Source of the DNA: Polyrhizophydium stewartii
Taxonomy: Eukaryota; Chytridiomycota; Chytridiomycetes; Rhizophydiales
DNA: 15,570 nt
Assembly (NCBI GenBank): GCA_027604665.1
Contig: JADGIZ010000342.1
Location: forward strand, 1 to 15,570
Reading direction: 5' to 3'
A program made the translations under genes and the position numbers. This document shows positions 1 to 12,094 of the stretch, one piece after another (positions within the stretch are counted from its first letter, which is position 1; each line of letters starts with the position of its first letter). The notes under the pieces were generated by a model. The model did not search any database. It saw nothing but the letters and a program-made list of their open reading frames with translations, and was not told where the DNA came from.

Positions 1-763
1 GCGGCGGGGAGGTCAGCGGCGGGGCGTCGAGCGCACGCGGCAGCGCGACGGCGGTGCGACGCACGACGACGACGGCGCCCGGGACGAGCGAGCCCGAGTG
101 GGTCTCGGCGAGCGACTTGACGTGCGCCAGCATGATGGCGGCGACCTCCTCGACGGCGAAGGCGTCCGAGGCGTTCTGGCGGAAGAGCACGGTGGAGCGC
201 ACGGGATCCTCGACGAGGTCGTTGGCCGAGGCGCCGCGGAAGGCGGCGACGGCGGGATCGGCGAAGCGGGCGCCGAGCAGCGGCTTGATGCCGGCGTAGG
301 TAGTCTCTGGGAAGCGCATGCCCTGCGCGGCGCGGGCGGCGGCGGCCGGGCGGGGAGAGGCGGTCAGCGCGGGCCGGGCCCGTCGCGGCGCGGCTCCGAG
401 CCGCGTCGGCGGTCTGCCGGTCGGGCCGGCAGTCTGACGGAGCGGGCGGATCGTCTGACGGAGCGGGCGGGGCGGCAGGCGGGCACAGCGGCAGCAGGCG
501 GAGCGGCAGCAGGCGGGCGAGCGCGCGCTCACCAGGTCGACGGCGCGCGAGCCGACGGCGCGCACGCCGTCGCGGACGTTGACGGCGGCGTGGGTCATGC
601 GCTTGGACTCTGCGTTGAGCACCACGTCGGTCTTGCCGCCGGCGCGCACGACGGCGGCGCGCAGCCACGCGGCGCCGGCGTCGATGCCCGCGACCGCCGC
701 CGCCGCCTGCGCGGCAAGCGCGACCACGTGCGCGGCCGCAAGCGCGAGCGTCCCGGCGTGCAT
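1..763 (-). CDS. LHS1: Lhs1/HYOU1 (GRP170)-like ER-lumenal Hsp70, N-terminal part, 3' end beyond window
   Basis: This looks like the large ER Hsp70 (Lhs1 in yeast, HYOU1/GRP170 in animals), a nucleotide-exchange factor for BiP/Kar2 that helps import and fold proteins in the ER lumen. Proposed exon 1 is 763-533 (77 residues) and exon 2 is 322-65 (86 residues); the intron is 532-323 (GTGAGC...CAG, phase 0). Residues 1-24 form a hydrophobic Ala-rich signal peptide, followed by GIDAGAAWLRAAVV and VVLNAESKRMT, which match the start of the Lhs1 ATPase domain. Exon 2 continues with the ATPase-domain stretch FRQNASDAFAVEEVAAIML, AHVKSLAETHSG and GAVVVV. A GTGCGT at 64-59 with a CTGAC further along suggests a second intron that leaves the window. 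The phosphate-1 loop lacks the Thr/Ser usual after GID.G. Family assignment is fairly firm. The reading past position 65 is inferred. Confidence 0.8.
   Translation of the reverse strand, partial: MHAGTLALAAAHVVALAAQAAAAVAGIDAGAAWLRAAVVRAGGKTDVVLNAESKRMTHAAVNVRDGVRAVGSRAVDLVSARSPACCRSACCRCARLPPRPLRQTIRPLRQTAGPTGRPPTRLGAAPRRARPALTASPRPAAAARAAQGMRFPETTYAGIKPLLGARFADPAVAAFRGASANDLVEDPVRSTVLFRQNASDAFAVEEVAAIMLAHVKSLAETHSGSLVPGAVVVVRRTAVALPRALDAPPLTSPP
432..516. repeat. Short tandem duplications in the Lhs1-like intron
   Basis: An 18-bp unit GTCTGACGGAGCGGGCGG occurs at 432-449 and 453-470. A 15-bp unit AGCGGCAGCAGGCGG occurs back to back at 487-501 and 502-516. Both lie inside the proposed intron 532-323, so they should be non-coding. 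Confidence 0.85.
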
Positions 764-1011
764 GCGTGCGGTTGCGAGTGCGCGGTTGCGGGGCAGCCGC
801 TGCCGGCCCGCCCGCCCGCCGCTGCCCAGATGCCGCCGCGCGCCCCCATTGGCTGCCCGCGCGCCGCGCGCTGGTTGGCCACCGCCTTCATTATGCTGGC
901 GCAGCCCCATTGGCTGCCGCTATCGCCCGCTGCGGGGTCGGAGACTCGGCCGTGGGTCGGCGGCCGGGCCACGGCTGCGGCGCAGAGGCGGCCAGCAGCG
1001 GGAGCGGGAGC

Positions 1012-1097: not shown

Positions 1098-2808
1098 TCA
1101 CACGCGCTCCAGCACAATGGCAATGCCCTGCCCGCCGCCGATGCACGCCGACCCGACCGCGTACTGCGACTGCGTGCGGTGCAGCTCGTGCACGAGGTGG
1201 CCCGTGATGCGCGCGCCGCTCGCGCCCAGCGGGTGGCCAAGCGCGATCGCGCCGCCGTTGGTGTTGATCTTCTCGGGCGACAGGCCGAGCTCCTTGGCAA
1301 CCGCGAGCACCTGCGCGGCAAACGCCTCGTTGACCTCGATCAGCGAGATGTCCGACAGCGCCAGGCCCGCGCGCTTGAGCGCCGTCTGCACCGCGGGCAC
1401 GGGGCCGATGCCCATGATGGCCGGGTCCACGCCAACGTAGTTCCAGCTCAGGATGCGCGCGAGCGGCTTGAGGCCGTACTCCTTCACGGCATCCTCGCCA
1501 GCGACAATCAGGCTCGCTGCGCCGTCGCAGATGCCCGAGGCGTTGCTGGGCACAGCGAAGCAGCGGTAGGCGGCAGCACTGGGTCAGCGCCAGGTCGCCC
1601 GGCCGCATCTCACGCGCTGCATCTCGCGCGGCGCGGCGCGGGGCATGTGCGACCTACCCGGCCGTGACCAGGCCCGTATCCTTGACAAAGACGGGCGCCA
1701 GCTTGGCCAGGCCCTCGATCGTGGTTGCGGGGCGCGGGTGCTCGTCGGCCTCAAAGGTCTCGGGACCCTTGCGGCCCTTGATCTCGACGGGGGCGATCTC
1801 GGCGCCAAAGACGCCGGCGGCGTGGGCGGCGGCCCAGCGCTGCTGGCTCATGAGCGCGTACGCGTCGGCGTCGGCGCGCGTGATGCCGTAGCGCCCGCCG
1901 AGCGTCTCGGCGGTGATGCCCATGGGCGTGCGCTTGGGGAACGAGTCGACCAGCGCGTGCGCCAGCGAGTCCTCGAGCGGCATGTCGATGCCGTAGCGCG
2001 TGCCGCCGCGCACGCCGCGCAGCACATACGGCGCCTGGCTCATGCTCTCGCTGCCGCCCGCCAGCACCACGCGCGCCTCGCCCAGCAGGATCTCCTGCGC
2101 CGCGTTGACCACCGCCTGGAAGCCCGAGCCGCACAGCCGGTTGACCGTCAGCGCCGGCGCGTCCTGCGCGAGCCCCGCGCGGTGCCCGACGTGCCGCGCC
2201 AGGTACGCCGCGTCTGCCCGCCCGCCGCGTCAACCATTCGCTCGCCAGCCGCGTGATGCTGGCTCCGACGGCCGCCGGCGCTCGGCCGAGCTGCTCCCCA
2301 GCCCCCGGCGAGCGGCCCGAGCCGCCAGAGGAGCAGCGTCCACCGGTGCGGCGGCAGCGGCCGCCGACCGCCGGCACACATGCGCGCACGCACCCGCCGA
2401 CGTCTGCAGCACGTTGCCGTAGATCACCGAGTCGACCTTGGCGCCGGCAGGCAGCTCCGCAACGGCCGCCTTGGATGCAAGCCCGCCGAGCTCGTTGGCC
2501 GTGAACTTGGCAAGCTTGCCGTTGAAGGCGCCGAACGGCTGTCCGCCCGCACGCGCATGCCCGCGCCGGCCCAGCGTCGCCGCCGCACAGATGACCGCAG
2601 TGCGTCAGCCGCCGCTCCGCAGCCACGTGCGCGGGACCAGGCACCCACCGTGCGCTTGGCGGCGACTGTCCGCGCGCCGCGGCCCAGCACAGCGCCCAGG
2701 CAGCAACAGCAGCGTCAGCCCGGCTGCGTCGGCACCTCGTCAACCCCGGCGCCCAGCAGCGCGCGCGCTCGCCCCACCGATGTACACGTTCTTGGCGAGA
2801 CGGCTCAT
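1098..2808 (-). CDS. ACAA2: 3-ketoacyl-CoA thiolase, mitochondrial ACAA2 type
   Basis: The enzyme cleaves 3-ketoacyl-CoA with CoA in fatty-acid beta-oxidation. Five exons join in frame: 2808-2778, 2665-2649 (17 nt), 2538-2394, 2213-1658 and 1545-1098, giving 398 residues against 397 in human ACAA2. Introns are 2777-2666 (GTGGGG), 2648-2539 (GTGGGT), 2393-2214 (GTGCGT) and 1657-1546 (GTAGGT), all ending CAG. The N-terminus reads [19 protein letters not shown], as in ACAA2. Active-site residues are all present: Cys92 in NRLCGSGF, His354 in GHPLG and Cys384 in SACIGGGQG. There is no C-terminal peroxisomal SKL. ACAA2 has a non-cleaved N-terminal mitochondrial signal, so a matrix location is likely. 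The ATG follows a CAG, so an upstream exon cannot be excluded. Its start is 127 bp from the divergent YJU2 start. Confidence 0.93.
2649..2665 (-). other. 17-nt microexon of the thiolase gene
   Basis: These 17 nt supply two bases of a Val codon and then Ala-Ala-Lys-Arg-Thr, exactly the residues needed to join NVYI to PFGAF in the conserved thiolase N-terminus. They are flanked by GGACAG on the acceptor side and GTGGGT on the donor side. The flanking introns are 112 and 110 nt. Without the exon the reading frame breaks and the conserved AAKRTPFG motif is lost. Confidence 0.85.
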
Positions 2809-2935
2809 CTGTGCGAGTCGGACAAGGATGGACTCGCCGCGCGTCCAGACCAAATGGCCACCGGCAACCGCGCCCTCAGGACGCGCGTATGTCTCAGCAC
2901 ATTACTGCGTTTCCGCCGATTCCAGTAACCACAAA
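2809..2935. promoter_or_regulatory. Bidirectional promoter between thiolase and YJU2
   Basis: These 127 bp separate the two divergent start codons and must hold both 5' leaders and core promoters. No CCAAT or TATA box is obvious. Composition is less GC-rich near the YJU2 side (about 2900-2935). Confidence 0.5.
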
Positions 2936-4185
2936 ATGTATGGCCGCTGGACAGCCGCCCCGCCAACACGCCGCTCGCCGCCCACCGCCCGCCTGCTGAC
3001 CGCCCGCCCCGCGCAGGTCCGAACGCAAGGTCATCACCAAGTACTACCCGCCGGACTTTGACCCAAGCAAAATCCCGCGGCGCAAGATACCCCGCGAGAC
3101 GCAGCAGAAGGTGCGCCTCATGGCGCCGTTCTCGATGCAATGTGCGACCTGCGGCGACTACATATACAAGGGCAAGAAGTTCAATGCCCGCAAGGAGCGC
3201 GCCGAGGGCGAGACATACCTGGGCGTGCAGGTGCGTCCGTCTGTTCTGTCCGCGCTGCCGCCCGCTGCGCTGACACTCGCTTCGCCGACACTCTCTTTGC
3301 CAACACTCGCTGCTCGCACGGCATTGTCCTCGGCCTCGCCGGCGCTCCGTCCCTCGCATGGCCGCACGCCCGCGCACTCGCACGCCCCCGCCCGCACAGG
3401 TGTTCCGGTTCTACATCCGCTGCCCGCGCTGCGCAACCGAAATCACCTTCAAGACGGACCCGCAGAACGCAGACTATGTCGCCGAGCACGGCGCCGTGCG
3501 CAACTTCGAGCCCTGGCGCGAGCAGTCGACGGTGCAGGAGGAGCTCGACGCCGAGCGTGAGGCCGAGGAGGAGAACAACCCCATGCGTGCGCTCGAGAAC
3601 CGCACGCTCGAGAGCAAGCGCGAGATGGACATTCTGGACGCCCTCGACGAGATCCGCGCCAAGAACGCCGCACTCGAGCGCTCGGGCGGCGCTGACCTCG
3701 TTGCCAAGCTCGCGGCGTCCGCGGAGGAGCAGGAGGCACGCAGGCGCATGCTCGAGGAGGAGGAGGACGAGCGCCTGGCGCAGGCCATCTTCCGCGATGC
3801 CGACGGCGATGTCGTCAAGCGCCTTGAAGACCCCATCGAAACCCTGCCAGGCGACGACGCAGACGACGCTGCCGGTCAACCCCTGCGGGCCTTCATTGCC
3901 GACTCGGACCTCGTCTCGCCGTCGTCATTTGATGCTGCGCCTGGTGCGGGCGGCCCAGCGCCAGATGCTGCGGCAGGCAGGAAGCGGCCATTTGGCGCTG
4001 CCGCTGGCCCGGCCATTGTCGTCAAGAAGCGGGTGGTCGCACAGATGGCAGCCAGGTCCGCACCAACGGCGGTATCAGCATCTGCCTCGGCCAAGGAGCC
4101 TCCCGCGGCAGCGAAACCCAAGCCTGCGCAGGCGCAGGCACTCGGGTTGCTCGCTGGCTATGCCGACTCGGACGAGGACGAATGA
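2936..4185 (+). CDS. YJU2: Splicing factor YJU2 (CCDC94/Cwc16 family)
   Basis: YJU2 joins the activated spliceosome and promotes the first catalytic step, docking the branch helix. The exons are 2936-2937 (AT only), 3017-3230 and 3400-4185, giving 333 residues. Intron 1 (2938-3016, GTATGG...CAG) splits the ATG after its second base. Splicing yields [20 protein letters not shown], the near-invariant family N-terminus. Intron 2 is 3231-3399 (GTGCGT...CAG). Zinc-binding cysteines are C43/C46 ([19 protein letters not shown]) and C80/C83 ([20 protein letters not shown]). RNFEPWRE follows, then a charged helical stretch of about residues 115-200 and a low-complexity tail ending [13 protein letters not shown]. 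It is convergent with the Brl1-like gene, with 103 bp between stops. Identity is very secure. The split start is inferred from family homology plus splice signals. Confidence 0.95.
2938..3016 (+). other. Intron splitting the YJU2 start codon (AT|G)
   Basis: The donor GTATGG directly follows AAAAT. CTGCTGACC near 2991-2999 is the branch-point candidate, and CGCGCAG is the acceptor. Joining AT (2936-2937) to GTCC (3017 on) creates ATGTCC and the expected Met-Ser-Glu-Arg-Lys. The intron is 79 nt, not a multiple of three. Unspliced RNA has an ATG at the same place but reads a 41-residue off-frame peptide ending at 3061. Confidence 0.8.
3272..3316 (+). repeat. Three imperfect 15-bp tandem repeats in YJU2 intron 2
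   Basis: The units at 3272-3286, 3287-3301 and 3302-3316 share ACACTC at the same place in each. They lie wholly within intron 2 of YJU2 and explain the repetitive peptide seen when the intron is translated. Confidence 0.8.
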
Positions 4186-4288: not shown

Positions 4289-6135
4289 TTAATTCATGAA
4301 CTGCTGGCTGCGCCGTGACCGTATCCTCGGCCCCGAGCCGCCAGGCGCATATGCACCAACCATGCCGTCTGCGCCGCCGCGTAGCCCCAGTGCGTCGGGC
4401 ATCGCCACGGACGGCGCCGCGGGTGGGTGATGGTGGTGGTGCACCGCCGCCGGCTCGCTGTGGGCGCCTCGGCGGCGCAGAAAGCCCAGCGCCGAGCTTG
4501 TGAGCATCAGCGTGCCGAACAGCGTCAGGCTGCCAAAGATCTGGGCCGTTCCATGTCAGCCTGATCTCGCGCACACATGAGATGCAGATGCACGGCAAGC
4601 ACGCACCATGGTCTTGTACGAGAGCGGGTCGATCAGCTTGTTGAGGATCTCAGCGAGCGTCTCGGCGCCAACCTTTAGCCTGCACAACCCGCACATACTG
4701 TGAGCGTGTGATCTACACAACAGACACCGCACACATCTCGCCGCATCCCACCTGCCAATCTCCTTGGGATCGCGCGACATGCACGTCTCCCACTCGACGC
4801 ACAGCTTCTCGACCGCCGGCACGCGCTGGCCCGGCGTGCAGCGGTTCTCAAAGTACGACTTGGTGCACTCGGCAATCTGGTTCGAGATCTCTGCAGCCGC
4901 GCGGGAAAGATCAGCGCCGGCCGCCAGATCGGACCGAGCCTCTGGCCGCACTCACCCTGCGAGAACTCGTCGGCCTTCATCTTGAGGTCGTGGCGGACCG
5001 AGGCAATGAACTGGATCACAATGTAGGACACAATCGCGACGATGAATGCCGTGAAGAACACCTGGATATAGCCCGTGATGAGGTACGGAAGGTGGAGGTG
5101 GCTGATGCCCGTGGATCCCGGTGCGCCGGCTGCGCCTGTTCTGCCCGCCGAGGGTCGGAACAGCGAAGGACGCCACCGGGTGCTCTCCTCGATGAGCACG
5201 TCGTCGTCGTCGCCGCTGGCCTCGTCGCCGTCGCTGACGCCGTGGCCTTGCACGCCGCCGAGGGCAACTAAGGCGTCCGTCTTCTTGCGCTTGCGGCTGC
5301 GCAGCTTGCGCTCGCTGTCGTCGCCCGCGCCGGCGGCCAGGCCGCCAACGAGCCCGGCAAGCCTGCTCCGCAGCGTCTCGGCTGCGCCAGATCCCGCAGC
5401 CCCGGCGACGCCGTCTGCGGACGAGGCGGCCGACGACGGTCGCACACGCCCGATGGGCGATGGCGTCGACGGCCCCGGCGTCTCGGCCCCCCGCGCGGCG
5501 TCGGCCCGCACGCTTGCGGGGAACGACAGCTCGCTCGGGCTCTCGGCGACCAGCGCGCTGCCGCGCAGGCCCACACCAACGCCGCTGCCCGTGCGGCCGA
5601 CCGCCAGCGCCGCCTTGGAGTTGAAGCGGTACACGCCTGCCGTCGGCGGGTCCGGTGACCCTGGGATCGTCGTGAACAGGTCGCCCGCACGGGTGTGTCC
5701 AAACGGCTTCGGCGCCTCCTCGCTGAACAGGCCCGAGTCGACGTGCTGCTGCTGGTACGGGTGCTGCTGGTGCTGCCCGCGCGGATAGAACGTTTGCGAC
5801 GCCCCGTGCACCGGCGCGGCGTAGCGCTGCGCCGCGGCGGCCGCAGCGGGCGCCGCCGCCGGCGACGCAAAGACCGACTCGGCGGGCGGGAGCTGCGGCT
5901 TGGCGTCGGGCTTGTCGTGAGCCGCCGCTGCAGCTGCCGGCGGGCCGGACATGCCGGCGAGCCTCGACAGCGCGAGCAGCCACGTGCGGCCCTCGGCGGG
6001 CGCCAGGTTCCCGTGCATCTCAAAGTCCATGGGCGCCTCGGTGCCGCGCGCCGCTGCGCCCGCTGGCTTGCCGCCGCCCGCGCGTGGCTGCTGCCTGGCC
6101 GGCTGCCGCCCTTGCTGCCCGGACCCGGCGAGCAT
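4289..6135 (-). CDS. BRL1: Brl1/Brr6-like nuclear envelope membrane protein
   Basis: The Brl1/Brr6 family acts at the nuclear envelope in nuclear pore assembly and membrane homeostasis, mainly in fungi with closed mitosis. The exons are 6135-4956, 4890-4752, 4679-4607 and 4540-4289, giving 547 residues. The introns are only 65-72 nt (GTGAGT, GTGGGA, GTGCGT), each ending CAG. The N-terminal 340 residues are low-complexity, with a basic RSRKRKK NLS-like patch and an acidic run. TM1 is about 354-378. The lumenal loop carries four cysteines at 402, 411, 424 and 430 (AECTKSYFENRC, LCVEWETC), the disulfide hallmark of the family. GRLKVGAETLAEILNKLIDP precedes TM2 (about 465-484), and a short His-rich tail follows. 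The start at 6135 has A at -3. An internal Met at 6030 in APMDFEMHG would give 512 residues and is a credible alternative. Brl1 versus Brr6 is not resolved. Confidence 0.9.
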
Positions 6136-6164
6136 CTTGCTGCGGAGATCAGCGAAGATTCCAC
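6136..6164. promoter_or_regulatory. Very short divergent gap between Brl1-like and SAP-like genes
   Basis: Only 29 bp separate the two ATG codons if both annotated starts are right, or 134 bp if the Brl1-like protein starts at 6030. No promoter motif is recognisable. The transcription starts may lie inside the opposing coding exon. Confidence 0.4.
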
Positions 6165-7733
6165 ATGGCCGACGCCGCGGCCTTGCGCTCGGCGCTCGAC
6201 GGCCACACGCTGCGCGTGCTGCAGGACATGTGCCGCGCCGAGGGCCTCAGTGCTGCTGGCAAGGTGCGCTGCCGCGCGCATGTCCCGTGGCTCGTGCCCG
6301 CCGCATCGGCTCGTGCCGGAAGAGCCCGTCGTGCGCCGCTGTCCGGACGGCGTGTCCGGCGATGTGGCCGTTGCCTGACCCGCTCGGCCTGCGCTCGTCA
6401 ACAGAAAGAGGCCGTCATCAGGCGCCTTGTGACCCACGAGATGCAGCAGTCCGCAGCCCAGCCGAGCGGCCAACCGAGCGGCCAGCCCAAGCCGCAGCCC
6501 AAGCCGCAGCCCAAGCCGCAGCCCAAGCAGCCGCCCAAGAATGGCGGGACCGACCAGCTCAAGAGGAGCGCCGGGCAGCCGACTCTGAAGGTCGAGGCAG
6601 CAGTAGAAGGTCCTCACGATGCACGCCATAACGGCAAGGCTCAAGCCGCGCCGCCGCCCAACCCCGAGATGCCCGCAGGCCTCGAGAAACGCATTCGCCA
6701 GCAGGAGCAGATTGACAAGCTGCTGCAGACCCAGGGGCAACAGCAACAACCCTCGCAGCAGATCCAGATGCCGCCGCCGAGCGCACGGCCAGCGCCGCGG
6801 CCAGATACCTTCCATTGCATCCCGTGCGGCAAGAAACTACCCATGAGCGCCGTGGGCGGCGCTGCGACCATCTCCGGCATGCGCATCGTCGTCCGCATGG
6901 ACGGAACGGGCGCTGATGCGCCGCCAAAGATTGTCCCACTCGTGCTGCGCATTCCAGACCACACCGATACCCGCTTTGCCAATGAGAAGCGATTGTGCAG
7001 GGCCTGCGTCGATCGCAACCTGCAGATCGCCGTGCTCCTCGGCGTCTCGACCGACCAGCCCGCCAGATCAGCCGCCACACCTGCTGCGGGCTCTGTGACA
7101 GCATCAACGCCGCGAACAGAGGTCATGCCAGTCAACTCGGCCGGCAAGCGTCCGTGGGACGCTGCATTCCTCAAGACCCCGATTACCACCGACGACAATC
7201 CATTTGATGTCAACTCGACCATCAACAAACGCGCGCGGCCGGCAGATCGCGGCGATGTGGCCATGCCCACGTCGGGCTTACGCTCGCGCCTGTTCTCGGT
7301 CGAGCCGCAGCCGACGCCTGTGCTCGGCGACTTGCAGAACCGCAACCGACGACCGCTCCCCGCTGCACACGCCGCCAAGGCCTCGGCAGCCGGCAAGCCC
7401 ATCGCCCCTGGCGTCGTGGCACCTTCCAGCGTCGCCCGCGCCGTCAGCCAGATCGCCCGGCCAACACAGCCGGCGGGTGTGCACCAGCAGCAGCAACAGC
7501 AGCATGCACCTGCGAATGGCGGAAGCAAGGCCGCCCGCCCGCACAAGACCCGCGTCGAGGCAGCGCGGTCGAGCGTCGTGGCAGCGGCGTCGCCCGACCG
7601 CCCACGGTACACGCCCGTCGAGTGCCCGCGCACGGCCGAGCGGGTCGAGCATCTGATGCGCGACCTTGGGTCAGCATCGCGCGACCAGCTCGACAAGGTT
7701 CTTGGCGCGCGCAGCGCCAAGCTGCCGCGCTGA
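6165..7733 (+). CDS. Unrecognised protein: SAP-like N-terminus, paired CxxC motifs, disordered tail
   Basis: The exons are 6165-6263 and 6405-7733 (intron 6264-6404, GTGCGC...CAG, phase 0), giving 475 residues. Spliced residues 11-42 read LDGHTLRVLQDMCRAEGLSA then AGKKEAVIRRLV, a good fit to the SAP helix-turn-helix (DNA/chromatin binding). A Pro-Lys-Gln repeat tract and a Gln-rich segment (about 125-160) follow. A compact, less repetitive domain contains C171/C174 (FHCIPCGKKLP) and C231/C234 (KRLCRACVDRNLQIAVLLG), a possible four-Cys zinc site with 56 residues between the pairs. The remainder is Ala/Pro-rich with KR patches (NKRARP) and a Gln run near 440. The C-terminus holds a short helix (TAERVEHLMRDLGSASRDQL). 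A nuclear role is inferred from the SAP-like motif and basic patches. I do not recognise the family. PIAS-type SUMO ligases were considered, but no SP-RING is present. Confidence 0.72.
   Translation: MADAAALRSALDGHTLRVLQDMCRAEGLSAAGKVRCRAHVPWLVPAASARAGRARRAPLSGRRVRRCGRCLTRSACARQQKEAVIRRLVTHEMQQSAAQPSGQPSGQPKPQPKPQPKPQPKQPPKNGGTDQLKRSAGQPTLKVEAAVEGPHDARHNGKAQAAPPPNPEMPAGLEKRIRQQEQIDKLLQTQGQQQQPSQQIQMPPPSARPAPRPDTFHCIPCGKKLPMSAVGGAATISGMRIVVRMDGTGADAPPKIVPLVLRIPDHTDTRFANEKRLCRACVDRNLQIAVLLGVSTDQPARSAATPAAGSVTASTPRTEVMPVNSAGKRPWDAAFLKTPITTDDNPFDVNSTINKRARPADRGDVAMPTSGLRSRLFSVEPQPTPVLGDLQNRNRRPLPAAHAAKASAAGKPIAPGVVAPSSVARAVSQIARPTQPAGVHQQQQQQHAPANGGSKAARPHKTRVEAARSSVVAAASPDRPRYTPVECPRTAERVEHLMRDLGSASRDQLDKVLGARSAKLPR
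6485..6529 (+). repeat. 12-bp coding tandem repeat encoding Pro-Lys-Pro-Gln
   Basis: There are three full units and one partial unit of GCCCAAGCCGCA. A related pair of 12-bp units encoding Pro-Ser-Gly-Gln lies just upstream (about 6462-6485). The repeat sits inside the second exon of the SAP-like gene and would vary in copy number without changing the frame. Confidence 0.9.
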
Positions 7734-8144: not shown

Positions 8145-8555
8145 ATGACTGTCAGCACCCTTGGGCAGCAGCTCTTGGCCCAGTCGCTGCCGCCGTCGGA
8201 GATCGAAGTTCAGGAAATTGACGAGTACGTCACCCCTGACCAGAAGGAGCTCCTGCACGCCGGCAGCGTCGTTGTCGTGCGCAAGGCGCTCAAGGACGGC
8301 GAAGAGTGCTACAACGTGCACGTCATCGAGGGCAAGAAGGTCGGCGCCATGATTGGCGTGCTCGACCGCAAGTCGGTCATTGGCAACGACCTCGTCGCGG
8401 GGCAGGCGTACATCGTCACCGCGGACCTGCGCGCGTCGGACAAGCTCGCTGACAAGCGCAAGTCGGCAAAGCACCACGGCATGGTCAAGTGCATGCTGAT
8501 CCAGGACATCATCGAGGGCGGCGAGGCCGGCGTCGACAAGAAGAAGCACAAGTGA
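8145..8555 (+). CDS. Unrecognised 136-residue lysine-rich protein, single exon
   Basis: This is an intact uninterrupted frame with A at -3 (AAGCATGACT) and a stop at 8553-8555. The protein looks real rather than a shadow: acidic and hydrophobic residues alternate in short strands (SVVVVRKALKDGEECYNVHV, GAMIGVLD, QAYIVTADLRA, GMVKCMLIQDIIEG) that suggest a small beta-barrel or mixed alpha/beta domain. A basic KLADKRKSAKHHG loop and a terminal KKKHK follow. There is no signal peptide or membrane segment. I do not recognise the family. eIF5A was considered because of size and strand pattern, but its hypusine loop is absent. It is convergent with the bestrophin-like gene across 304 bp. Confidence 0.75.
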   Translation: MTVSTLGQQLLAQSLPPSEIEVQEIDEYVTPDQKELLHAGSVVVVRKALKDGEECYNVHVIEGKKVGAMIGVLDRKSVIGNDLVAGQAYIVTADLRASDKLADKRKSAKHHGMVKCMLIQDIIEGGEAGVDKKKHK

Positions 8556-8859: not shown

Positions 8860-10892
8860 TCACTCCCAAAACTTTCCAAGCGTCGGGCTGTCGCTGCTGA
8901 GCAGGGGCGCCTCCATGATATACTCGATATCGCCGCGCAGTTTCTGGCAAAAGTGGTCGAGCGGCAGGTCGTTCTGTTGCCAGCAACAGATCACCGTCGG
9001 AATCAGTGCACAAGATTCAGCTCGCAGGCTGCAGGTCGCGGTTCGCATGGCACACAGGCAAGACGCACCTCTTCGGTGCCAAACGGGCCGTCGATCTCGG
9101 CCGCGATGGCGTCGGCGCCAAAGTAGGCAAACGCCACGACACACGAAACGAGCACGACCGTCCAGCCGAGCGAGCGGACGAGCTGGAACGGCAGCCATAG
9201 AAAGTACATCAAGAGGATGTGCTTCATGTGCGTGTCGTACGACCGCGGCAGAGGGACGTTGAGGATCTGTCGACACGCAACGGCAATGACCATGTCAGCG
9301 CCAGGGACAACACTCGAGTCTGCGCCAGACACAACGCACCTGTTCAAACTTGGTCACCGAGTCGATCATGGTGTTGATCGCTTGTGTCATCGACGGCACG
9401 TCGTCTGGGTCAGCAAGCCGATCCTGTCGCTGCCGGCGGATGTAGAAGCCGATGCGGTGGATAATGTCCAGCGGCGTGTTGATCACAAGACTTCCGTCCT
9501 GGTCGTACATGGGGAAGCGGTTCATCGGCTCTTGGCCGTGTGCGCCGAGAGCAGAGTCCATGGACGTGATTGACAGCGCCGACTGCGCGCTCACGAGCGG
9601 CGGCGTCGTGACGCCGTTGGCGCTGCCGTGGTCGATGGCGTCGTAGTGCGGAAGAAGCTCGGAATCGGCATCATCATTAGTGGACTGTTGCAAGGCTGTT
9701 GGTTGTGCGTCATGGTGCGTGATGACAGACAGATTGGGCGGGAGCGGAGTTGACTGGCGCAGGGACGGGCTGCTTCCACGACGACTATCGCGTTGCGTGT
9801 CGGCTTGATCCGCGGTCGCCGATGCTGCATACGGGGCTGTGCTATGACCAGCCTTTGAAGTTGCCGTGGCGGTGACTGTTTTGGTGGTCGTGACCGTCGT
9901 TCTGGTGGTGTGGGTTTGCTGCATTCGAATGCGCTCGCTGCGCCGCGGCGTGATCGGCACGGCCGATGCAAACGGCTGGTTTGAATTGCTGGCCTCGCCC
10001 CTCCACTGGCGGATGCCAGGCCGTCGCGAAGAGTGCACCTCGTATGAAGCAGTCGAATGGATGCTGTGCTGGCGGCTCAGAGTGCTCGGAACAGGAGTGC
10101 GCGCCGCACTCGGCGCCATGTCGTGCTGTCCGCCCGCCGTGGCTCTGTCATCGTCAAAGAGATCCACCATGCTCTGTCGCCACGTGCGCACCTCAAAGTA
10201 CCCCGGAGGCAGCAGCCGCCGGACTTCATCGTCGAGCTGGGATGCCGGTCGGCCCTTGTCGCCTGTAACCAAGGAGCCCCGACGCGGATTGTGCGCACCG
10301 CTGCCACGCCGCCCAGCGTGCTTCCCGCGACGCAGCGCGCACTTGGTCGCAACGGCGACCGCCAGCAGCATGCGCATCATCTGGTGCTTCTCGGCGTCGT
10401 GCTCGCGCGTCGGCGTCTGGATGCCGTTCCAGATCAGACGAGCCAGGTTGCGCGTCTGAATCAGCAGCGTCGTCCACAGTTGTGCGCCTTGCCAGTATCG
10501 ATCAAAGGCGCGGTTGGTCCGGAAGGCGAGCAGAAAGGCCAGTGCGACGCCGAGCATTGAGATGAGTCTGTGAGAACCGATGCAGCCGGCGAATTGCGAC
10601 AGGAGGGGAGTGCAGGGGTGCAGAGCCAGGAGTAGGGACGTCAACTGGCGCGAGCAGCGTGCGCCATGCAGCGCGTGAGGGAAACGCACTTGTCCTCGAA
10701 TGTCCAACGCAGTATATCGCTCTTGTTCAGGCTCACGATGAGCGCCGACCACGCCGTCGCGGCCGCAACGACTGGCAGGATCGTCGGCACGATGCTGCTC
10801 CGGAAGCTGAGCGCGCGCAGCATCGAGCGCCAGTAGCGGTCGTGGCGGCGGCGGCGCGGGCGGTCTAGCGGCGCAGTATGATACCCCTGCAT
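8860..10892 (-). CDS. Bestrophin-like anion channel (RFP-TM/UPF0187 family)
   Basis: This is a membrane protein of the bestrophin superfamily, pentameric chloride/anion channels in characterised members. The exons are 10892-10690, 10567-9340, 9266-9069 and 8973-8860, giving 580 residues. All three introns (122, 73 and 95 nt) begin GTGCGT and end CAG. The N-terminus carries an RRRR patch and first hydrophobic helix (VPTILPVVAAATAW). LISMLGVALAFLLAFRTNRA and FDRYWQGAQLW match the family core. TPLDIIHRIGFYIRRQ corresponds to the fungal LPLEI segment. LPRSYDTHMKHILLMYFLWL and a following helix lead to the hallmark GPFGTEENDLPLD, built across the last splice. Residues of about 209-415 form a long Ser/Thr/Gln-rich disordered insert between the conserved halves. 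The target membrane and selectivity cannot be read from sequence. It shares a 167-bp divergent promoter with EMC8/9. Confidence 0.9.
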
Positions 10893-11059
10893 TCCTTGCG
10901 GTATGGATCCGTGCTGCGGAAGCCTGCAGCGTGCGGGGATCTCTCGCGCGGCGGCGAGAGCGGCGGAGGTGTCGGCTCCTCATCTCGGCCGCGGCTGCGC
11001 GGGTTTCTGGCCGCGTCCGTCCGTGAATGCCTGACAGACGAGCTCTGCGCCGCCCCACC
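10893..11059. promoter_or_regulatory. Bidirectional promoter between bestrophin-like gene and EMC8/9
   Basis: These are 167 bp between divergent ATGs. No CCAAT, TATA or palindromic operator stands out. The EMC8/9 side ends in a near-ideal CCCACCATGTCC start context. Confidence 0.45.
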
Positions 11060-12094
11060 ATGTCCGCGCCGACGTTCGAGGTGTCCACGGCGGCATACGC
11101 CAAGCTGGTGCTGCACGCGGCCAAGTACCCGACAGAGCCCATCTACGGCGTGCTTCTGGCCGAGGCCGGCGCATCCGCTACCGCGGGCGGCAAGCAGCGC
11201 ATCGTCGACGCCGTGCCGCTCTTCCACTCGCACTGGATCCTCACGCCGTCGCTGCAGCTCGGCATGGAGCAGGCAAGCTGCCGCGCGGTCTGCACGAGGC
11301 GGCCCGCCTGCGCGCAAGCTCGCACACTGGGAATGCGCGCCGTACAGGCGCCTTGCAGCCTTGTGCTGCACGCAGCGGCCCCGCGCCTGTGCTCCGCGAA
11401 CACGGCTCCTTGGGAGGTCTGTGGCTTCCTCGACTCGCCGCTGACAGAGTGCAACGCCCACCGGTGCTGCTGCGCTGCCCCTTGGACGGCCGGCGGCTGC
11501 AGATCGAGATCTACGCCAAGCAGGCTGGCCTCAAGATCGCTGGTGCATACGCCGCCAACGAGCTCGAGACGAACCGAGGCGTCGAGCCCGCCGTCGGCGC
11601 CGCTGCCGCCCAGATCGACACACACACTGGCGGCCATGCGCTGCTGCTCGTGGTGAGTCCGGCGCAGCGTGCACTTGGCTTTGACATGAGTATATGTTAT
11701 AACACTCTGCGTGCGCCTCATTAGTTTGACCCCATCCAGTTCAAGAAGGGCCGCTTTGCGGCTGTCGTGAGTGGCCCGTCTTGCTGCTTGTTGCTGGGCC
11801 TCTTCGCGCCGCATCTGACGCCGGACTCAACCCTCAGCCGTACGGCCACCAGTCCGGCGCATGGCGGGAGCTTGCCAAGGCACAGTGAGTGTGCTTGGAG
11901 GCAGCCAGCTCCCAAATGGGTTGCGTTGAGTACGGCGCTGACCGCCGGCCGGCAGAGTCGAGCACGACGACGGTGCCATTCAGACCGCCGCCAAGCTGGT
12001 CAAGGACCAGGCGTTCGCATCGCTGTTTGACCTTGACAATCACCTGGACGACATCTCGCTGGATTGGATCAGGAACCCGGACGTCAAGATCTGA
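11060..12094 (+). CDS. EMC8: ER membrane protein complex subunit 8/9 (EMC8/EMC9)
   Basis: EMC8/9 is the cytosolic, catalytically inactive MPN-fold subunit of the EMC insertase, which inserts tail-anchored and multipass proteins into the ER membrane. The exons are 11060-11272, 11503-11652, 11740-11766, 11838-11884 and 11956-12094, giving 191 residues (human paralogues about 208-210). The last three introns begin GTGAGT. The first (11273-11502) begins GCAAGC after CAG, a GC-AG intron. Matching landmarks are FEVSTAAYAKLVLHAAKYPT, VPLFHSHWIL, QAGLKIAGAYAANE and the near-invariant FDLDNHLDDISLDWI close to the C-terminus. No JAMM metal ligands are expected in this family, and none are seen. The third exon is only 27 nt. 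Exons 3 and 4 have the weakest family support, because that segment (FKKGRFAAV-PYGHQSGAW) is variable. Confidence 0.9.
11273..11502 (+). other. GC-AG intron in EMC8/9
   Basis: The exon ends GAGCAG and the intron begins GCAAGC, one base from the CAG|GCAAGT consensus of GC-AG introns. It ends GGCTGCAG before ATCGAGATC. The join gives GMEQIEIYAKQAGLKIAG in frame, as family alignment requires. No GT donor nearby restores that sequence. The CTGAC branch candidate lies about 57 nt before the acceptor, farther than in neighbouring introns. Confidence 0.75.

Follow-up and report, generated by a model that had tools for sequence, protein, structure and literature searches.

An intron that probably splits the start codon of YJU2 in the chytrid Polyrhizophydium stewartii

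Where does the YJU2 protein of Polyrhizophydium stewartii, a chytrid of the order Rhizophydiales (database taxonomy), begin, and does an intron interrupt its initiation codon? The window analysed here is the whole stretch of 15,570 nucleotides on contig JADGIZ010000342.1, and a search of the 690 contigs (12.86 Mb) of the genome placed the YJU2 matches in two exons of this contig and only there. The predicted YJU2 protein recovers the public entry 'Pre-mRNA-splicing factor cwf16 [Polyrhizophydium stewartii]' (P0001) with 100% identity over 100% of the query, and the spliced protein matches PF04502 (Saf4/Yju2) along the full length of the profile (positions 1-332 of 332), with 280 bits against a curated cut-off of 27.8. 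Comparison with PDB sequences identifies the protein as YJU2 and not as YJU2B/Saf4: its three best-matching YJU2 chains score 224.6-228.1 bits, YJU2B 66.6 bits and Saf4 54.9 bits. Five of the seven distinct PDB sequences matched carry the names YJU2, CWC16 or CCDC94 and are presumably of human and yeast origin; all five begin MSERK, and in each residue 1 of the chain aligns with residue 1 of the query. The whole-length match and the MSERK start are features that the P. stewartii protein has in common with the YJU2/CWC16/cwf16 family (PF04502).

The letters at 2931-2943 read ACAAAATGTATGG, and those at 3010-3030 read CGCGCAG followed by GTCCGAACGCAAGG. Removal of 2938-3016 joins the AT at 2936-2937 to the G at 3017 and yields ATGTCCGAACGCAAG, also given as ATGTCCGAACGC, and the additional removal of intron 2 (3231-3399) leaves a single YJU2 frame of 333 residues. 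Given the proposed intron, the bases 2938-3016 lie between the second and third letters of the ATG, and its GT-AG ends, branch motif and length all fall inside the training range of introns from the same genome, the donor being weak. The first-pass annotation had proposed that an intron splits the ATG of YJU2, and the letters, the 79-nt length (2938-3016) and the phase agree with its account; the splice model, the codon statistics, the conserved N-terminus and the anomalous models of the relatives support this conclusion, which is drawn from DNA and homology. Probably, a 79-nt phase 2 spliceosomal intron splits the start codon of P. stewartii YJU2, so that AT and G would form AUG on splicing; the use of the donor at 2938, the transcription start site and the role of the AUG as initiator are all three what we infer. 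The features of the window are the following:

2936..2937, plus strand: start of the YJU2 start codon (AT) and end of exon 1, with A at -3, -2 and -1
2938..3016, plus strand: putative intron 1, 79 nt, phase 2, splitting the ATG; donor GTATGG at 2938-2943, branch CTGAC at 2996-3000, acceptor ...CGCGCAG ending at 3016
3017..3230, plus strand: YJU2 exon 2, from the G of the start codon to ...TYLGVQ; PF04502, with YJU2 structure chains aligned from residue 1
3231..3399, plus strand: YJU2 intron 2, 169 nt, phase 0; donor CAG/GTGCGT (genome consensus), acceptor CACAG
3400..4185, plus strand: YJU2 exon 3, ending at the stop TGA; within the exact reproduction of P0001
2925..3016, plus strand: rival intron of the public model P0001 (ATG 2854, donor CCA/GTAACC), judged unlikely
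2809..2935, plus strand: 127-bp gap, by sequence, from the split ATG to the putative thiolase start, promoter region and 5' leader
1098-2808, minus strand: thiolase (Pfam)
4556-6246, minus strand: Brr6-like protein (Pfam)
9003-11142, minus strand: fungal bestrophin in several exons (Pfam)
11035-11724, plus strand: UPF0172 match below the curated cut-off (Pfam)
2-919, minus strand: open frame with an Hsp70 match (Pfam)
1014-1059: 23 GA repeats, between the frame with the Hsp70 match and the thiolase gene
8145-8555, plus strand: 136-codon open frame (MTVSTLGQQLLAQSLPPSEIEVQEIDEY...) with no Pfam match

The splice signals were scored with a small gene model trained on loci of the same genome located through the chaperonin and mitochondrial carrier families, from which 54 introns were kept and 45 (both flanks above 12 bits) used for scoring. 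The training basis is codon statistics, not RNA; the YJU2 contig lies outside the training set, and the codon table excludes four of the 41 loci (L026, L030, L033 and L035), whose match contains a stop. The consensus of the 54 introns comprises (i) the donor G/GTGCGT, (ii) the branch CTGAC, and (iii) the acceptor CAG, with 37 of the 54 lengths between 60 and 130 nt; the 5' splice consensus of P. stewartii is GTGCGT, with C at +4, not GTAAGT or GTATGT. The acceptor at 3016, taken with the CTGAC 18 nt upstream, scores 13.77 bits against a training median of 10.97 and a 75th percentile of 13.13 (45 introns), which bears out the first-pass description of a good acceptor just before base 3 of the ATG. 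The donor at 2938 reaches 2.39 bits, the 4.4th percentile of the 45 training donors, its weaknesses being T at -1 and positions +3, +4 and +6 off consensus.

Enumeration of models with an ATG in 2600-3016 and GT-AG introns of 35-400 nt reaching the SERK frame returned 10 ATG models, every one via the acceptor at 3016, with seven donors: 2938 (2.39 bits, the best), 2788 (2.11), 2887 (1.74), 2782 (-0.47), 2891 (-3.57), 2925 (-3.88) and 2909 (-5.57). The statement that the AT at 2936-2937 is the only one nearby followed by a donor went too far as to the letters, since AT/GTCTCA (2891) and AT/GTACAC (2782) likewise yield MSERK; it stands to the extent that neither of these donors reaches even the lowest score among the 45 training donors. 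There is no ATGC, and hence no AT/GC donor, within 2806-3016. Donors in an AT/GT context that score at least as well as that at 2938, 50-150 nt before the acceptor, were present in 396 of 5000 dinucleotide-shuffled versions of 2810-2997 and, among 5000 random windows taken from this genome, in 499 (about 8-10%), so that the donor alone is modest evidence; the split-start case draws its weight from the conservation of MSERK, the branch point and acceptor, and the poor alternatives.

Across the whole genome, each donor word was counted at intron-like spacing before CTGAC and CAG, alternative CAGs being counted separately. GTATGG...CTGAC...CAG occurs at 79 places (the YJU2 intron included) versus 11 for the reversed pattern, GTGCGT at 1546 versus 164, GTATGT at 115 versus 38, and GTAACC at 16 versus 63. 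Control words at the same spacing gave 57 (TTGGGA, the letters of GTATGG without GT) and 54 (CATACG), and the strong GTATGG enrichment suggested by the reversed pattern alone was rejected as overstated; GATGTG (194) was discarded as an unfair control word because it contains a GTG donor. Per word occurrence (in the genome loci GTATGG occurs 19, TTGGGA 23 and CATACG 24 times, with 6-157 occurrences for each of all the words), the ratio to TTGGGA/CATACG is about 1.7-fold for GTATGG, an uncertain value, about 2.9-fold for GTATGT and about 4-fold for GTGCGT, with GTAACC about level. At most, GTATGG represents a minor class of donors in this genome, and with so slight an excess the genome-wide counts do not settle the choice of donor.

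By these word counts, but not by the nine-base score, the GTATGT at 2887 is a serious competitor, and it is the chief rival to 2938. Splicing from this donor (CGC/GTATGT) would remove an intron of 130 nt, inside the training range, and the product from the ATG at 2828 would be MDSPRVQTKWPPATAPSGRA-SERK. The donor score, however, is below that of 2938, the leader has a codon score of -7.7 over 19 codons, the conserved Met would be lost, and just 19 bp would separate the start codons of YJU2 and of the thiolase, whose putative start codon, placed from sequence at 2808-2806 on the minus strand, is divergent from YJU2. We consider the use of the donor at 2887 improbable.

The coding signal changes sign at the split ATG, with -16.9 bits over the 30 codons before it and +14.2 bits over the 40 codons after it, the other two frames being negative. 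No ATG lies between the in-frame stop TGA (2997-2999) and SERK, which leaves the unspliced sequence with no ATG in frame at the start of the protein, and the next Met is residue 36. The reading frame above 2936 is open to the ATG at 2828 and to that at 2780, so the intron 2938-3016 could follow an internal Met, with the split ATG coding for a methionine behind 36 (or 52) residues; the ATG at 2828 has A at -3. The leaders of the rival models have negative codon scores, with the longest inside the spread seen for random frames. For the leader of 36 codons the value is -15.1, where random frames have a mean of -18.1 (sd 18.7), and its GC3 is 0.64 against 0.86 in training exons. Translation from 2828 would again leave 19 bp to the thiolase start, and a leader is found in none of the 207 relatives beginning M[SA]ERK among the matches listed. 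According to a passage of PMC8022279, Yju2 promotes branching, and in yeast its N-terminus sits on the branch helix and contacts it and the branch A, a position that makes an extra leader unexpected. Taken together, an upstream start on the same intron appears distinctly improbable.

It is very unlikely that the N-terminus comes from an exon further upstream, from some other donor, GT or not, or from translation that begins at a codon other than AUG. The donors at 2788 (2.11 bits) and 2811 (GTGCGA, 2.73 bits, slightly above 2938) score about like that at 2938, and the former with the ATG at 2780 would give MYT-SERK; this ATG and donor nevertheless fall where the thiolase on the opposite strand has its putative first coding exon, the donor at 2811 belongs to no ATG model, and AT/GC donors are absent as noted above.

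The public model P0001 places the start at the ATG at 2854 and the donor at 2925, adding 23 residues; it is the deposited annotation and is exactly reproduced with the intron 2925..3016. Its donor GTAACC (-3.88 bits) falls below all 45 training donors, the word is rarer than its reversed pattern and about level with the control words per occurrence, and its leader is non-coding-like (-5.6 over 23 codons) and unlike the leaders of the relatives in the pairs tested. In a passage on annotation, the 2025 P. stewartii assembly paper (PMC12204190) mentions RNA-seq for B. dendrobatidis strains only. The public gene model of YJU2 looks wrong at its start, and that P0001 should be correct as deposited is scarcely credible.

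The N-terminus of the family was compared in 217 distinct protein entries, each representing one cluster, drawn from the best 120 of 5210 and the best 120 of 2914 matches. Among the matches listed, 207 of 217 fungal relatives begin M[SA]ERK, in line with the five PDB sequences and with Met-Ser-Glu-Arg-Lys as the start that had been expected of the family. The ten exceptions among the 217 are P0001, P0003, P0004, P0006, P0007, P0014, P0028, P0052, P0111 and P0217. P0014 is a plant protein with a further domain, and P0111 is partial. P0028 (Rhizophlyctis rosea), P0052 (Irineochytrium annulatum) and P0217 are YJU2 models without a plain M-S/A-ERK start, and the SERK segment is absent from P0052. 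As putative initiator, the joined ATG is supported by this conservation and by the codon scores.

The M[SA]ERK start is missing from every model listed for Polyrhizophydium, Batrachochytrium (three models, two species) and Homolaphlyctis, five in all. Leaders of 24, 16, 10 and 12 residues precede SERK in P0001, P0003, P0004 and P0006, respectively, and P0007 (the JAM81 model) is cut, starting one residue late with ERK. Five of the six possible leader pairs were compared, and none of the five scored above shuffles; the YJU2 proteins of B. dendrobatidis and B. salamandrivorans share 92.5% identity over the 160 residues after the leaders despite the dissimilarity of the leaders themselves. The last leader residues of P0001, P0003, P0004 and P0006 are Q, Q, W and L, all of which fit a codon ending in G, and would be compatible, as a weak indication, with a phase 2 intron in the relatives. 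P. stewartii is nearer to B. dendrobatidis than Homolaphlyctis is, according to a passage of PMC12204190. The models of Globomyces (same order, Rhizophydiales) and of Entophlyctis helioformis (Chytridiales in NCBI) begin with plain MSERK, a comparison with the P. stewartii start codon at the level of protein models. The simplest reading of these protein models suggests that a start-codon intron may have been gained in the clade of Batrachochytrium, Homolaphlyctis and Polyrhizophydium and overlooked by gene finders. The models of B. dendrobatidis, B. salamandrivorans and Homolaphlyctis (P0003, P0004, P0006 and P0007) are possible cases of misannotation at such an intron.

No relative was found in viral contigs, and further genome contigs contained one (L044, JAIYDP010000115.1, 3001-3664), in which ATGGGTGAAAGG is contiguous and hence no start intron is present; the chytrid DNA found in these searches was that of P. 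stewartii alone. This contig is filed under a Verrucomicrobiaceae MAG, and the YJU2 relative is broken up as if by introns; it looks like eukaryotic contamination of the MAG.

Within the P. stewartii genome, a split start was found in none of the 28 introns of the strict AT/GTGCGT...CTGAC...CAG/G pattern by a codon test (negative before, positive after the ATG) that is crude, as the 40 codons past the ATG may enter a further intron, and this count sets a low prior for a single split-start case; a looser pattern gave 64 matches versus five for the reversed one. Yarrowia lipolytica, in which introns within the start codon are known, belongs to another phylum than P. stewartii. Passages on this yeast describe (i) 47 genes with a one-base first coding exon, the A of the ATG (PMC2911113), and (ii) 42 introns whose 5' splice site directly follows one of the three letters A, T and G of the ATG, with phase 0 in the case of the G (PMC13309789). 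The 47 Yarrowia genes are split as A/TG, whereas P. stewartii YJU2 is split as AT/G, and the 42 introns are reported to be efficiently spliced, whereas the intron predicted in P. stewartii has a weak donor. A passage of Nielsen and Wernersson 2006 (PMC1626468) describes as relatively rare those introns that interrupt the start codon, with phase 1 or 2 at codon 1, and lie inside the ATG as proposed for YJU2; the paper characterises the commoner phase 0 introns right after the ATG, and its passages include no chytrid or YJU2 case. The rarity of introns in initiation codons claimed in the first-pass annotation holds in general, with Yarrowia as the exception. PMC10182648, considered as a further precedent, was rejected, as it concerns a mutation in the start codon and not an intron. 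The literature searched, in limited library listings, contained no report of such an intron for YJU2; the type of intron is already known, and what is new is the gene and the lineage.

Under the split-start model, the first exon of YJU2 would be non-coding and end in AT, and splicing would create the AUG (CACAAA-AUG-UCC), giving a protein that would begin with the MSERK found in almost every YJU2 protein listed. With the intron kept in the RNA, translation from this AUG (AUGUAUGG) would follow a different frame, 41 residues long with its stop in exon 2, so that YJU2 would not be made from unspliced RNA. Such a retained-intron RNA, with its 41-residue frame, is a likely target of nonsense-mediated decay. 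A passage of PMC7049704 describes an A-rich context before the start codon, like that of YJU2, in genes for ribosomal proteins from several fungi. Ordinary constitutive splicing is the likeliest role of intron 1; since YJU2 is itself a branching factor, the weak donor could in principle, as a speculation, couple the supply of YJU2 to its own splicing in a feedback. A broader scenario, which we regard as unlikely, comprises a single origin of the start-codon intron in the ancestor of Batrachochytrium, Homolaphlyctis and Polyrhizophydium and its retention with a weak donor, so that output would be tied to branching efficiency and a branching factor would gate its own start codon, all five models of the clade being wrong or incomplete at the N-terminus as gene finders disallow a split ATG.

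Gene finders, which put the whole ATG in the first coding exon, are blind to start codons that are split. A core spliceosome protein of P. stewartii apparently carries a wrong annotated N-terminus, as may its counterparts in related species, including two amphibian pathogens. If the split start is true, the message must be spliced before the splicing protein YJU2 can be made, and the locus would offer a simple test case of whether a splicing factor controls the formation of the start codon in its own message.
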